From Paludibacteraceae bacterium (GTDB lineage Bacteria; Bacteroidota; Bacteroidia; Bacteroidales; Paludibacteraceae), in NCBI GenBank assembly GCA_017646225.1, contig JAGCMZ010000144.1, positions 1 through 12,228 on the forward strand: DNA of 12,228 bases, given 5' to 3'. Under the pieces are notes generated by a model. It was not told the DNA's origin, did not search any database, and was given only the letters and a program-made list of their open reading frames with translations. The position numbers and the translations under genes are program-made. Shown piece after piece: positions 3,721 to 12,016 of this stretch (positions within the stretch are counted from its first letter, which is position 1; each line of letters begins with the position of its first letter).

Positions 3721-5280
3721 ATGAATCACATTAAAATACTTTGGGCCGACGACGAAATTGAGCTGCTAAAGCCACACATCCTTTTCCTAGAGGGAAAGGG
3801 ATACGAGGTTACGGCTGTAAACAACGGAAAAGAAGCCATAAAAGCCTGCCAAGAAAACAAGTTTGACCTTGTGTTTTTAGACGAAAACATGCCTGGCATT
3901 AGCGGCTTAGAGGCACTGCTCGAAATAAAAAAGATGCTACCTTCGCTACCGGTTATTATGATTACCAAAAGCGAAGAAGAAGACATCATGGACCAAGCCA
4001 TTGGTCAAAAAATTGCTGATTACCTGATAAAACCGGTTAATCCCAACCAAATTATCATGACCATTAAAAAGGTGTTGCAGGCCAACGAAATTATCTCGCA
4101 AAAAACCACAAGAAACTACCAAATGGAGTTTATGCGCATCAGCACGCAAATAAACGACAGTACCGATGCCGATAGTTGGCGCAACATTTACAACCACCTG
4201 GTGTACTGGGAAATGGAGCTTGCCGAAACAGGAAGCACGCTAAACGAAATGTTGCAAATGCAAAAATCAGAGGCCAATAACCTGTTTGTACGCTTTATTA
4301 AAAAGAACTACGAGAACTGGTGGAAGAACACCGAAAACAGGCCCATGATGAGCCCCGACTTGTTTAAAGACAAAGTGTTCCCCCTATTGGACCAGGGTAA
4401 AAAGGTGTTTTTTGTACTCATCGATAACCTGCGATTGGACCATTGGAAGGTGATGCAAAAAGAGTTGGCATCGCTGTACCAATTTGACAGCGACGATACG
4501 TTTTACAGCATCTTGCCTACGGCTACGCAATATTCGCGCAATGCTATTTTTTCGGGATTGATGCCCTCGCAAATTAGAAAAATGTACCCTCATTTGTGGG
4601 TAGACGAAGAAGAAGACGAAGGCAAAAACCTAAACGAAGAGGCGCTTATTCAAACCCAGCTGGATCGTTTTAGAAAGAAATATGCTTTCTCTTACCACAA
4701 AATTAACACCAACGTGGCAGGCGAAAAGCTGAACGAAAACCTAAAGCAGCTGCTTCATAATCCGCTCAATGTGGTGGTGTTTAACTTTGTTGATATGCTA
4801 TCGCACGCTCGTACCGAGGTGAAATTGTTCCGCGAACTGGCACCCGACGAGGCAGCCTACCGATCGTTGGTACATTCGTGGTTCAAACACTCGTCTATTG
4901 CCGAGTTTTTCCGCATTTTGGCCGCGCAAGACGTGCACATTGTGCTCACCACCGACCACGGCAGCATTCGCGTTAAAAACCCCATTAAGGTTATTGGCGA
5001 TAAAAACACCAACGTAAACCTACGTTACAAAGTGGGCAAAAATTTGGCGTACGATAAAAAACAAGTGTTGGCACTTACGCAGCCCGAAGCTTGCTTACTG
5101 CCTACACCCAACCTCAGCTCTACTTATATTTTTGCCGAGTGTGACGACTTTATTGCCTACCCTAACAACTATAATTATTACGTTAGCTATTACAAAGATA
5201 CGTTCCAACACGGGGGTATATCGCTCGAAGAAATGATTATCCCATTGGTAAGTATGCACCCTAAAAAAATAATGCCATGA
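3721..5280 (+). CDS. porX: PorX: response regulator fused to a PglZ alkaline-phosphatase-fold domain
   Basis: PorX is the response regulator of the PorX-PorY pair that controls type IX secretion in Bacteroidetes, acting with the sigma factor SigP. Its C-terminal PglZ domain is a zinc phosphodiesterase active on cyclic oligonucleotides in characterised homologues. The 519-residue length is typical. The receiver domain (about 1-120) has the acidic pair D10-D11, phospho-acceptor D54 in VFLDENMPG, T82 and K104 in YLIKPV. A helical linker runs to about 215. The PglZ domain keeps the expected metal-site residues: D235 (LIDNLR), the threonine nucleophile region PTATQYSR (266-273), D358 and H362 (FVDMLSH), D412-H413 (TTDHG) and H497 (FQHGG). 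The start at 3721 puts ILWADDE at the normal position. The stop overlaps the ldcA start by 4 bases. No sensor kinase lies beside it, consistent with PorY being encoded elsewhere in these bacteria. Confidence 0.93.
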   Translation: MNHIKILWADDEIELLKPHILFLEGKGYEVTAVNNGKEAIKACQENKFDLVFLDENMPGISGLEALLEIKKMLPSLPVIMITKSEEEDIMDQAIGQKIADYLIKPVNPNQIIMTIKKVLQANEIISQKTTRNYQMEFMRISTQINDSTDADSWRNIYNHLVYWEMELAETGSTLNEMLQMQKSEANNLFVRFIKKNYENWWKNTENRPMMSPDLFKDKVFPLLDQGKKVFFVLIDNLRLDHWKVMQKELASLYQFDSDDTFYSILPTATQYSRNAIFSGLMPSQIRKMYPHLWVDEEEDEGKNLNEEALIQTQLDRFRKKYAFSYHKINTNVAGEKLNENLKQLLHNPLNVVVFNFVDMLSHARTEVKLFRELAPDEAAYRSLVHSWFKHSSIAEFFRILAAQDVHIVLTTDHGSIRVKNPIKVIGDKNTNVNLRYKVGKNLAYDKKQVLALTQPEACLLPTPNLSSTYIFAECDDFIAYPNNYNYYVSYYKDTFQHGGISLEEMIIPLVSMHPKKIMP

Positions 5281-7850: not shown

Positions 7851-8822
7851 TTAGTGCTTTCTGCCCATTAGGTTATTGGCAAAATTGATTAAGATATCTT
7901 TCTTATCTTCAGATAGTTGCAAAGATTTTAAGCTTCCGACTGATTTTTCAAAATATTCATGAATAGCCTCTTCGCAACGAATGTCAATTTGCAAGTTTTT
8001 GTAGATTTTCAGTACAGCTGCTATTTTTTCTTCAAAGCAATCTGGCTGGTTGCAACGCATCCATTCCAGTAGTTCGGCGCGTTGTGTTGCGTCTGCCTCT
8101 TGCAATGCTGTAATCATCAAGAAAGTTTTCTTGTTGCAGCAAATATCGCCCCCAATCTTTTTGCCAAACACAGCCGCATCGCCAAAACTATCCAAATAAT
8201 CGTCGCGCAATTGGAAAGCCAAGCCCAAATTGATGCCGTAATCGTACAAGGCATCGGCATCTTGCTGGCTAGCGCCCCCAATAAGGGCACCCATTTTTAA
8301 TGAAGCCGCTAGCAATACCGCTGTTTTAAGGCGAATCATTTCGATGTACTGAGGCAAGGTAACGGCCAAGTCGTTTTCAAAATCAACGTCGTATTGTTGT
8401 CCTTCGCACACCTCTATAGCGGTTTTAGAGAACAAATCGAGCAACACAGGAAGTTTATCGGCAGGAGCCTGTTGCATGAATTGATAAGCTTTGATAAGCA
8501 TGGCATCGCCCGATAGAATGGCAGTGTTATCGTTCCATTTTTTATGAACGGTAGGTTTGCCCCTACGGGTATCGGCACGGTCCATAACACCGTCGTGCAA
8601 CAACGTAAAATTGTGAAATACCTCAATGGCCAAAGCAGCCGTCATAGCAGGCTGTTCGTTGCCCGAAAAAAGTTTGCATGCCAATAAAGTCAATACAGGG
8701 CGAATGCGCTTGCCACCTAACGACAAAACATAATCGATGGGGCTATACAAACCTGTTGGCTCGGTTATCCATTGGATATTTGCCAACTCTTTTTCTACTT
8801 GTTGTTGCAATTGTTTAATCAT
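7851..8822 (-). CDS. polyprenyl diphosphate synthase (short-chain, GGPP-type) with altered first Asp motif
   Basis: Enzymes of this family condense isopentenyl diphosphate with allylic diphosphates to make farnesyl, geranylgeranyl or longer prenyl diphosphates used for quinones and carriers. The 323-residue length is typical. Visible landmarks are GGKRIRP (36-42), the first aspartate-rich motif region HNFTLLHDGVMD (70-81), RRGKPTVH (86-93), FQLRDDYLD (203-211, an intact second motif) and GGDICCNKKTF (224-234). The first motif reads DGVMD instead of DDxxD: Asp-2 is Gly at residue 78 (codon GGT). The metal-binding first and last Asp remain. Phe at position 72, five residues before the motif, suggests a C15-C20 chain. 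The start lies 15 bases after the stop of the acyltransferase gene, so the two are probably co-transcribed. Confidence 0.9.
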   Translation of the reverse strand: MIKQLQQQVEKELANIQWITEPTGLYSPIDYVLSLGGKRIRPVLTLLACKLFSGNEQPAMTAALAIEVFHNFTLLHDGVMDRADTRRGKPTVHKKWNDNTAILSGDAMLIKAYQFMQQAPADKLPVLLDLFSKTAIEVCEGQQYDVDFENDLAVTLPQYIEMIRLKTAVLLAASLKMGALIGGASQQDADALYDYGINLGLAFQLRDDYLDSFGDAAVFGKKIGGDICCNKKTFLMITALQEADATQRAELLEWMRCNQPDCFEEKIAAVLKIYKNLQIDIRCEEAIHEYFEKSVGSLKSLQLSEDKKDILINFANNLMGRKH

Positions 8823-8837
8823 CGTATGATACTATTT

Positions 8838-9923
8838 TTATCGTCCACCCGTAATAATAGCGGTAAAACGGGGAGAAATTTTATGGAACAAATGATACAG
8901 GCCAACTCCTACTGCTGCTATTAAAACTGGGATAACAAAATAGCCAACTACAAGCGATACCTCGTTTACTGGTTGGAACAATTTGAGCCACACTTTTTGG
9001 CAGAAGAATACGGCCAACAAATGGTAAGCATATACAAAGAAGGTGGCACCGGCAATTTTTTCGCTGATATGTATTTTTTCCAGTTCATTGCCCCTAGCTA
9101 CCCAACCGATAGCGGCTGCCATGCCTACTAGCACATTGATGTTGTGTACAATGTCGTAAATCGGTTTTAAATCGGCATACCACAATGCCATGTTAACACC
9201 TACCAATACTAGGAATACCGCCAATAATACCTTGCGCATGGGCAAGAACAAGGTAGCAAAGTTTACCTTATGGATGCTAAACCAAGCACCTAACGAGAAG
9301 AAGAAGATGGCGGTTAAGCTAAATCCAGTTACAGGCAATGTAATTCCTGCTATCCACAAACATCCTACAAGCGGAATCCATATCCATTTGAGGTAACGCA
9401 CCGCCATATACAACAGCGGGCTAAAGATACCCATCATCATTAAATCGCGAATAAACCAAAACTGACTGGCTACAGGTGCGTCTAATTTATACGACCAAAA
9501 CATGTTCAACCATTCGGTAATGGATTTAGAAGCAAGCAATTGGTTCGATCCAGACGTAAGTCCCGTTAACAATAGGTTGCCCCCTATCATCATGGCCAAC
9601 ACCAGTGCATTCCAAAACAAATAGGGAATTAGCAAGGTATGCACCCTGTTTTTTAGCTTATTTACATAGGTAGTTTGGGTAAAATCGGCTTTGTAGAAAA
9701 AGAGGAAGCCTGCAAAAAAGAAAAAGGTAGTGACATCGAACGATGCCAATTCTTGTTTTACCAAGCAATAAATAAAATCGTAAATAGGATACATGCCCGT
9801 TTGCACATAATCCACGCCATCAATAATGGTTCCTACAAAATTGGTGTGCGATACTACCACCGAAAAGATAAGCGGAAAACGCAAAAAATGGATGGTTTTG
9901 GATAGTAATTGATCGGGCGCCAT
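8838..9923 (-). CDS. acyltransferase family 3 membrane protein (copy A)
   Basis: Acyltransferase-3 (PF01757) proteins are integral membrane enzymes that transfer acetyl or other acyl groups, usually to sugars of surface glycans, peptidoglycan or lipids. This 361-residue protein shows about ten hydrophobic segments. Family features include the TM1 histidine H26 (VVSHTN), the aromatic TTFFFFAGFLFFY segment (65-77), LIPYLFW (98-104), QFWFIRDL with R159-D160 and a late TM histidine H301. It ends in ITGGR, an ending I associate with Bacteroidetes members of this family. Its N-terminus and last 11 residues closely match copy B at 9964-11034, so the two arose by tandem duplication. A TAnnTTTG box lies upstream in the 40-base gap. 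The acceptor is unknown. Confidence 0.88.
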   Translation of the reverse strand: MAPDQLLSKTIHFLRFPLIFSVVVSHTNFVGTIIDGVDYVQTGMYPIYDFIYCLVKQELASFDVTTFFFFAGFLFFYKADFTQTTYVNKLKNRVHTLLIPYLFWNALVLAMMIGGNLLLTGLTSGSNQLLASKSITEWLNMFWSYKLDAPVASQFWFIRDLMMMGIFSPLLYMAVRYLKWIWIPLVGCLWIAGITLPVTGFSLTAIFFFSLGAWFSIHKVNFATLFLPMRKVLLAVFLVLVGVNMALWYADLKPIYDIVHNINVLVGMAAAIGWVARGNELEKIHISEKIAGATFFVYAYHLLAVFFCQKVWLKLFQPVNEVSLVVGYFVIPVLIAAVGVGLYHLFHKISPRFTAIITGGR

Positions 9924-9963: not shown

Positions 9964-11034
9964 TTATCTACCACCCGTAATAATTGCCGTAAAACGTGGC
10001 AAATATTTACGCAAGCCAAGGTACAAATACACCGCGCCTACGCTTACAACGGTTGGAATCAGCACATAACCGATAATCATTTTGGCATCGGTCATGGGCG
10101 ACAGGTAGGTTACCCACAATTTAGAGGCAAACACCGTTATGGGGTTGTGGATGCAAAACAAAAAGAAAGCAGCATCGGACAAGGTTTTGTTGGCATGTAT
10201 GGTTTGCGTCTGAATGCCCCTGGCTACCCAAGCTACCAAGGTAGCCATACCCAACAAAATACCCAAGCGTTGCAAAAGGGCTATTTGCGCAAAAGAGCTA
10301 GACCAAAGCACCGTATTGAGTACCAATAACGGAAGATATAGTCCTAGCAAATACCACCTGTAGTTGACCAAAATAGGGGTATAGTTTTTGTTGGTTAGCG
10401 CATACCACGCACCCAGTCCAAAAAAGAAAAAAGCGGTAACGTTTACTCCTACCCAGGGTGTTTGGATGCCCATGCACCACAAAATGCCCAGCAGCAGTAC
10501 GCCAAATATTTTTAAGTACCGTACCAAAAAATAGAGCAACGGAGAGCAAACCACTACCACCATCAAGTCGCGAATAAACCAAAACGGACTCATGGGGAAG
10601 GAAAGCCAATAGGCTTTTAGCCAATCTATTAGGGTGTACTCTTTGATGGGCAAATTATTGCCCGATGTAAACGAAGGAAATACCTGTTGTGCCACAAAAA
10701 TCATCAGCAACAGGGCGGATATCCAAAAAAGATAGGGCACCAACAAGGTTTTTACCCGCCTTTTTAGTTTATCGGCATACAATTGTTTTGAAAAGGCTCC
10801 TTGAAAAAAGAACAAGAAGCCCGAAAAGAAGAAAAACAGTGGCACACGCATGCGCACTATTTCGCCATCGAACAAATGGTTGAAAATATCAAAAATAGGA
10901 AACATGCCTCCCTGCGTTACACTATCGCCACCTATGATTACGCTATCCAAAGTGGTATGCACAATAACCACCCCCACCATGAGCGGGAAGCGCAAAAACC
11001 GAATGGTATCCGAAAGTAACTTATCGGAATGCAT
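9964..11034 (-). CDS. acyltransferase family 3 membrane protein (copy B)
   Basis: This is a second acyltransferase-3 protein of 356 residues, paralogous to copy A. Matching landmarks are H26 (VIVHTT), the FFFFSGFLFFF segment (67-77), LVPYLFW (98-104), FWFIRDL with R155-D156, H296 (FCIHNP) and the C-terminal PRFTAIITGGR shared exactly with copy A. I chose the ATG at 11034, not the upstream in-frame ATG at 11061, for two reasons. From 11034 the N-terminus aligns residue for residue with copy A (both reach LLS-x-T-I-x-FLRFPL at the same offset), and the 11061 start would lie inside the C-terminal codons of the full-length ddl frame. With this start, 7 bases separate it from the ddl TAA (11042-11044), so it is in a ddl operon. 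Acceptor and donor are unknown. Confidence 0.87.
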   Translation of the reverse strand: MHSDKLLSDTIRFLRFPLMVGVVIVHTTLDSVIIGGDSVTQGGMFPIFDIFNHLFDGEIVRMRVPLFFFFSGFLFFFQGAFSKQLYADKLKRRVKTLLVPYLFWISALLLMIFVAQQVFPSFTSGNNLPIKEYTLIDWLKAYWLSFPMSPFWFIRDLMVVVVCSPLLYFLVRYLKIFGVLLLGILWCMGIQTPWVGVNVTAFFFFGLGAWYALTNKNYTPILVNYRWYLLGLYLPLLVLNTVLWSSSFAQIALLQRLGILLGMATLVAWVARGIQTQTIHANKTLSDAAFFLFCIHNPITVFASKLWVTYLSPMTDAKMIIGYVLIPTVVSVGAVYLYLGLRKYLPRFTAIITGGR

Positions 11035-11041
11035 GTTTAGT

Positions 11042-12016
11042 TTAGTTGAGCTTGCTTTCAATGATATCGGCCATTACATCTTTGATGTCCAAACCTGCGG
11101 CGCGCACTTGTTGTGGAATAAAGCTGGTAGGCGTCATACCTGGAGTGGTATTGGCTTCTAGCACGTGTGGAACGCCATCGGGCGATATAATATAGTCGAT
11201 GCGCACAATACCTTTGCAACCCTAAATATCGTAATATTTAGCAGTTTGGCGTTGTACCTCGGCGGTAAGTTCGTCGGAGATACGAGCAGGGGTAATTTCT
11301 TTTACCTGACCGTTGTATTTGGCATCGTAGTCGAAGAATTCGTTCTCGGTAACCACCTCGGTAATAGGGAATACCACGGTTTTGTTGTGGGTTTTGTACA
11401 TACCGCAGGTAATTTCGGTTCCTTGCAAAAACGATTCAATAATCACCTCGTCGCCTTCGGCAAAGGCACGTTGGATAGAAGCATCCAACTGACTGGCTTC
11501 TTTTACTTTGGTAACACCAAAACTGCTGCCGCCTACGTTGCTTTTTACAAAGCAGGGCAAACCTACGGCTGCTAAAATTTCGTCACCATTGTAGCTATCG
11601 CCTTTGCGCAACAACACCGATTGGGCAATTTTGGCTCCAAAACCTTGCAAATAGCGGTTGCACACAAATTTGTTAAAGGTTAACGAGGCTGCCAACACAC
11701 CGCAACAAGAGTATTTTAATCCAATCAAATCAAAATAGCCTTGCAAAATACCGTTTTCGCCGGGTGTTCCGTGAATGGTGATGTAGGCAAAATCGAAGGT
11801 TTGTTTAACGCCATCTTGAACAAACGAGAAATCGTTTTTATCGATGGGATACTGCTCTGTTTCGCTCACAACAGCGTTCCACTCTTGGCCAATAATGGTT
11901 ACAATGGTAGTTTTATATACGTTTTGGTCGATAAACGACTTAATGCCTTGAGCACTTTTTAGCGATACAACAACTTCTGACGAGTCGCCCCCCGCAACAA
12001 TTGCTATGTGTTTCAT
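11042..12016 (-). pseudogene. ddl: D-alanine--D-alanine ligase with internal in-frame amber codon
   Basis: Ddl joins two D-alanines with ATP in the cytoplasm to make the end of the peptidoglycan stem peptide. The frame from ATG 12016 encodes 264 residues, then a TAG at 11222-11224. It continues in the same frame for 59 sense codons to TAA at 11042-11044. The first part has E14 (SSEVVVSLKS), HGTPGENG, SCCGVLAAS, a phosphate loop-like GGSSFGVTKV and EITPARIS. The part after the TAG contains GIVRIDYI, then [11 protein letters not shown] and [11 protein letters not shown]. These hold the catalytic Arg, the Mg-binding Asp, Glu and Asn, and the omega-loop that the family needs. With one residue in place of TAG the length is 324, normal for the family. 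The residue before GC is usually Leu in relatives as I recall them, so TTG to TAG is the simplest origin. Translation stopping at TAG would give an inactive ligase. Confidence 0.9.
11222..11224 (-). other. in-frame TAG interrupting ddl
   Basis: Codon 265 of the ddl frame reads TAG, with GAT ATT before it and GGT TGC AAA GGT after it. No frameshift is involved. TAG is an ordinary terminator in this window: it ends the GtrA-family gene (2638-2640), the CPBP gene (7073-7075) and the helical-protein gene (7034-7036). General reassignment of UAG is therefore unlikely. Confidence 0.95.

Follow-up and report, generated by a model that had tools for sequence, protein, structure and literature searches.

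The stretch of DNA analysed here, in the following called the window, is the whole 12,228-base contig C87 of a Paludibacteraceae MAG (G000). The MAG comprises 1,405,607 bases in 271 contigs, with a completeness of 78.24% and a contamination of 2.97%. On its minus strand the window carries a ddl gene that is interrupted by a single in-frame stop codon. The features of the window that matter for the following are:

11225 to 12016, minus strand: first piece of ddl, codons 1-264, covering the N-terminal domain and the larger part of the ATP-grasp C-terminal domain
11222 to 11224, minus strand: in-frame TAG at ddl codon 265, where the examined relatives have a sense codon
11042 to 11221, minus strand: second piece of ddl, 59 codons and the terminal stop, conserved and open
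7851 to 8822, minus strand: polyprenyl synthetase, third gene after ddl, with G at residue 78 where relatives have D

Translation of ddl from 12016 to 11042 (minus strand) gave 264 residues, the TAG at 11224-11222, 59 further residues and the terminal stop. Coordinates, strand and frame of the stop are thus exactly those given by the original prediction. In a profile search the Dala_Dala_lig_N domain matched residues 3-105 with 59.4 bits (cut-off 34.6). The Dala_Dala_lig_C domain (PF07478, 204 positions) was covered from position 5 to 147 by the first piece, with 96.8 bits for the whole piece, and from position 150 to 204 by the second piece, with 50.1 bits (E 3.3e-13). Because the matches break off and resume at positions 147 and 150, the domain continues across the TAG almost without loss, and the second match cannot be explained by chance. 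This bears out the claim that 59 open and homologous codons follow the TAG. No single open frame of the window ddl spans the whole ATP-grasp C-terminal domain, with one TAG lying within the match. When searched with NF002527 the pieces scored 291.6 and 53.8 bits, each below the curated cut-off of 310.

Without the stop the protein would have 324 aa, the total length that the family had been said to expect and that is found in 100 of the 120 listed homologs (325 aa in 19, 301 aa in one). Neither a frameshift nor a second lesion was seen in ddl, in agreement with the further claim that the gene is otherwise intact: at columns invariant among the relatives the window ddl departed at 0 of 35 in the first piece and 0 of 14 in the second. 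Apart from the TAG its private residues amounted to 0 singletons (mean 0.9, median 0). The segment after the TAG presumably holds the Arg/Asp/Glu/Asn active-site residues and the omega-loop.

The surroundings of ddl were compared with those in one relative, G006, in which ddl, an acyltransferase gene, the polyprenyl synthetase gene and a gene for a 244-aa protein follow each other. The same order is found in the window, with two acyltransferase genes after ddl instead of one. The shared gene order together with the matching domains identifies the window ddl as an ordinary ortholog at its usual place. The two acyltransferase genes of the window (8838-9923 and 9964-11061, minus strand) are tandem Acyl_transf_3 genes with 41% mutual identity, and both share their last eleven residues, PRFTAIITGGR, with the single gene of G006. 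Further away, at 3721-5280 on the plus strand, the window encodes a 519-aa protein with a response-regulator receiver domain and a PglZ domain. In six of the 22 relatives in which the gene was read to its end, a frame of about 300 codons runs into ddl without a stop: L024 (G010), L025 (G002), L026 (G004), L027 (G003), L028 (G012) and L029 (G001). For the two of these that were tested, L024 and L029, this frame matched a CPBP/Rce1-like protease. It may represent a protease-Ddl fusion or two genes sharing one frame.

We then compared codon 265 with its counterparts elsewhere. As homologs we used the 120 highest-ranking of 7,999 scored proteins from a database clustered at 90% identity, such that another truncated ddl copy could hide within a cluster. 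All 120 carried one and the same aliphatic residue in the column of codon 265, with 0 gaps, and 13 of them were 96-98% identical to the window ddl over the first 264 residues at a length of 324 or 325 aa. When searching 41 genomes, including the MAG itself, ddl matches were obtained in 38 (none in G017, G023 and G024). No stop was present within the best match in any of the 37 other genomes, where the match covers at most the first 264 residues. For 22 of these 37 relatives the frame was followed across codon 265 to its own stop, and it was open in all 22. The nearest named relatives by ddl were Paludibacteraceae MAGs from sheep colon and from the rectum and colon of dairy cattle. In G006, G013 and G008 the sense codon at position 265 differs from TAG by one nucleotide. 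The orthologs of G006 (91% identical to the first piece) and G013 are intact, while the G008 copy lacks its beginning because of a contig edge and is open over the part present. The original prediction had suggested comparing this codon in sister strains. The TAG was seen neither in the 22 relatives followed across the site nor in the 120 listed homologs, so that within the set examined it is confined to this assembly.

The second piece showed a substitution pattern of constraint. Relative to G006, G013 and G008 its dN was 0.030, 0.053 and 0.007 at dS values of 2.26, 1.04 and 1.60, the latter being near saturation. For the first piece we obtained a dN of 0.063, 0.068 and 0.082 and a dS of 0.94, 0.65 and 1.02 (for G008 from residues 80-264 only). 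All 59 residues of the second piece were found identically in 7 of the 120 listed homologs. The second piece is under purifying selection and its decay has not begun. The stop is either very young or absent from the organism.

Lesions of this type were also sought in other genes of the MAG. To this end 21 of its contigs (179,074 bases, window included) were surveyed against 1.10 Mb of G006. From 933 queried G006 genes 100 aligned (at least 65% identity over at least 50 residues; 30,512 aa in total). Among the matches there were 12 internal stop codons, nine of which were no more than 26 residues away from the end of a match. Of these nine, one alignment was viewed (L143, minus strand, with the stop before the Met), and the others were judged by position and local identity. 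The remaining three were clean mid-gene stops, i.e. the TAG in ddl and two TAA codons:

L143 3985-5217 (G000:C195), plus strand: folC with an isolated mid-gene TAA at codon 240 of 411
L133 3915-3148 (G000:C200), minus strand: DUF2520/Rossmann gene with an isolated mid-gene TAA at codon 65 of 256

Frame changes were not seen among the 100 aligned genes. The folC stop was absent from the matched part of 15 other genomes (the matches in G025 and G029 miss codon 240), and the DUF2520 stop from 15 other matching genomes (G029 misses codon 65). Candidate folC stops in G009, G026 and G030 turned out to lie outside the genes, which showed 0 stops when aligned from the Met on. No mid-gene stop appeared in 14 more genes (4,317 aa) from five extra contigs and the prfA locus, where a single stop was located at match residue 5. 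Counting the window, the lesion checks extended to 26 of the 271 contigs and to single loci besides. The substitution class was identical at the three stops in ddl, folC and the DUF2520 gene, a sample too small to be used.

In the reverse survey 91 of 165 genes of the MAG aligned to G006 (29,535 aa). Here as well isolated lesions were detected:

L203 6680-4923, minus strand: G006 gene with one clean mid-gene TAA
L199 6713-4735, minus strand: G006 gene with one frame change

The other stops found in G006 were close to the ends of matches or upstream of a start codon (three alignments viewed). Four mid-match stops in L164 lay upstream of the Met of the matched gene. The load of mid-gene stops was thus 3 of 100 genes in the MAG versus 1 of 91 in G006, which is not a significant difference (Fisher p 0.62). 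Both draft assemblies carry isolated lesions at the per-cent level.

A further lesion was found in the window itself. At residue 78 the polyprenyl synthetase has a G, a position at which all 37 distinct relatives have D. The commonest reading of this region in the relatives is HDDxMD, presumably the first aspartate-rich motif of the family, which is needed for Mg-diphosphate binding. Among 44 columns invariant in 40 loci of the relatives, G78 was the sole departure of the window. Of 38 distinct sequences of this protein, 6 (counting the window) showed a lone departure at some column, and one of them, G6_L178, departed alone at 31 columns and is thus probably a paralog. As other sequences also depart alone, the weight of G78 lies in which residue is affected and not in the count. 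For the six genes or gene pieces of the window with at least four relatives, the only other departure was at 1 of 78 columns, in the LD-carboxypeptidase (four relatives).

The best explanation of the ddl TAG, with a probability of roughly 70%, is in our view an erroneous base in the consensus sequence of this fragmented and incomplete MAG. The source organisms would then carry an ordinary intact D-alanine--D-alanine ligase, and the lesions in ddl, folC, the DUF2520 gene and the polyprenyl synthetase would, as we infer, be errors rather than mutations. A consensus error is favoured by the private nature of the stop, by the purifying selection on the second piece and by the other isolated lesions, including the one on the same contig. 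In most walled bacteria ddl and folC are essential. Several simultaneous hits that include these two genes are more easily reconciled with errors than with a viable cell. Some points argue against a consensus error. The lesion load is small and inseparable from that of G006, and the 14 genes surveyed in addition were free of mid-gene stops. A real nonsense allele would look identical in the consensus. Finally, the window ddl is otherwise free of private residues, and lone departures in the polyprenyl synthetase occur in relatives too.

A very recent nonsense mutation is the main rival, though rather improbable. It may have arisen in the sampled strain or be a minor allele of the population, being either lethal and caught by chance or tolerated due to a second ligase encoded in a region missing from the assembly. 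The undecayed second piece would be expected for such a young allele, and with a completeness of 78% the MAG could miss a second ligase. However, this reading requires that the two additional nonsense codons and the lost invariant residue in other conserved genes are real as well. The second Ddl or related ligase that had been proposed to exist elsewhere was not found in a PF07478 search of the 78%-complete MAG. The three other PF07478 hits were weaker and belonged to the carbamoyl-phosphate synthase large subunit (two) and to PurT (one). Furthermore, each of the 37 other matching genomes contained one strong ddl match, with weak extra matches in G002, G007, G016, G034 and G036 (E 1e-6 to 1e-3).

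The original prediction had listed four alternatives, of which a base-calling or assembly error (now favoured) and a recent nonsense mutation stand, while suppression or read-through and two complementing polypeptides are not supported. Read-through of the stop to give a full-length Ddl, whether it relies on a suppressor tRNA (amber or ochre) or on a programmed signal, appears very improbable. In its favour, the frame downstream of the TAG is conserved and the recovered tRNA set of 15 genes is incomplete. Yet none of these 15 tRNAs has a CTA anticodon, as in the CUA-anticodon tRNA that had been put forward, or a TTA or TCA anticodon. Leu tRNAs with the anticodons taa and tag were dismissed as suppressors, because they read sense codons. 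Loss of RF1 was ruled out, as RF1 was found above its cut-off and free of internal stops. TAG also serves as an ordinary terminator, closing 16 of 81 well-matched frames (TAA 56, TGA 9) with the internal stops of ddl and folC left out; with these counted, the numbers are 57 TAA, 17 TAG and 9 TGA for 83 frames. Since the three lesions include both TAA and TAG, an amber suppressor alone would be insufficient. A programmed signal is further opposed by the absence of the stop from the 22 relatives and 120 homologs examined. Even less probable is a gut Bacteroidota lineage in which TAA and TAG are suppressed at a low level, so that isolated stops in ddl, folC and the DUF2520 gene would be tolerated and the full-length enzymes made in small amounts.

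Least probable is a ligase assembled from two separate products, of which the second would start anew at the GTG at 11206, the first codon of a 54-aa frame five codons past the TAG. No examined relative has ddl split at this place, and the cut falls within the ATP-grasp domain. Like read-through, such a split enzyme is possible in principle and has no positive support.

The stop is thus a correct reading of the sequence but of little biological interest, being most likely an error or one very recent mutation and not new biology. It calls for caution: when a core gene of a draft MAG contains a single in-frame stop, comparable lesions in the rest of the assembly and in the assemblies of relatives should be taken into account before concluding that the gene is read through or lost. 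Should the stop be genuine and translated, Bacteroidota would offer here an uncommon example of core genes in which stops are tolerated.

In comparison with known systems, the two pieces match the D-alanine--D-alanine ligase family (NF002527 / TIGR01205; PF01820 and PF07478) in order and nearly from end to end, and the window copy differs from it by the in-frame TAG at codon 265. The situation resembles that of draft-genome genes truncated by consensus errors, where, like here, isolated lesions occur in conserved genes of a fragmented MAG. For rumen assemblies, protein truncation relative to UniProt hits has been used as a measure of sequencing error (PMC6785717). The passage of that work considered here deals with insertions and deletions in long-read assemblies, whereas the present lesions are single-nucleotide changes.
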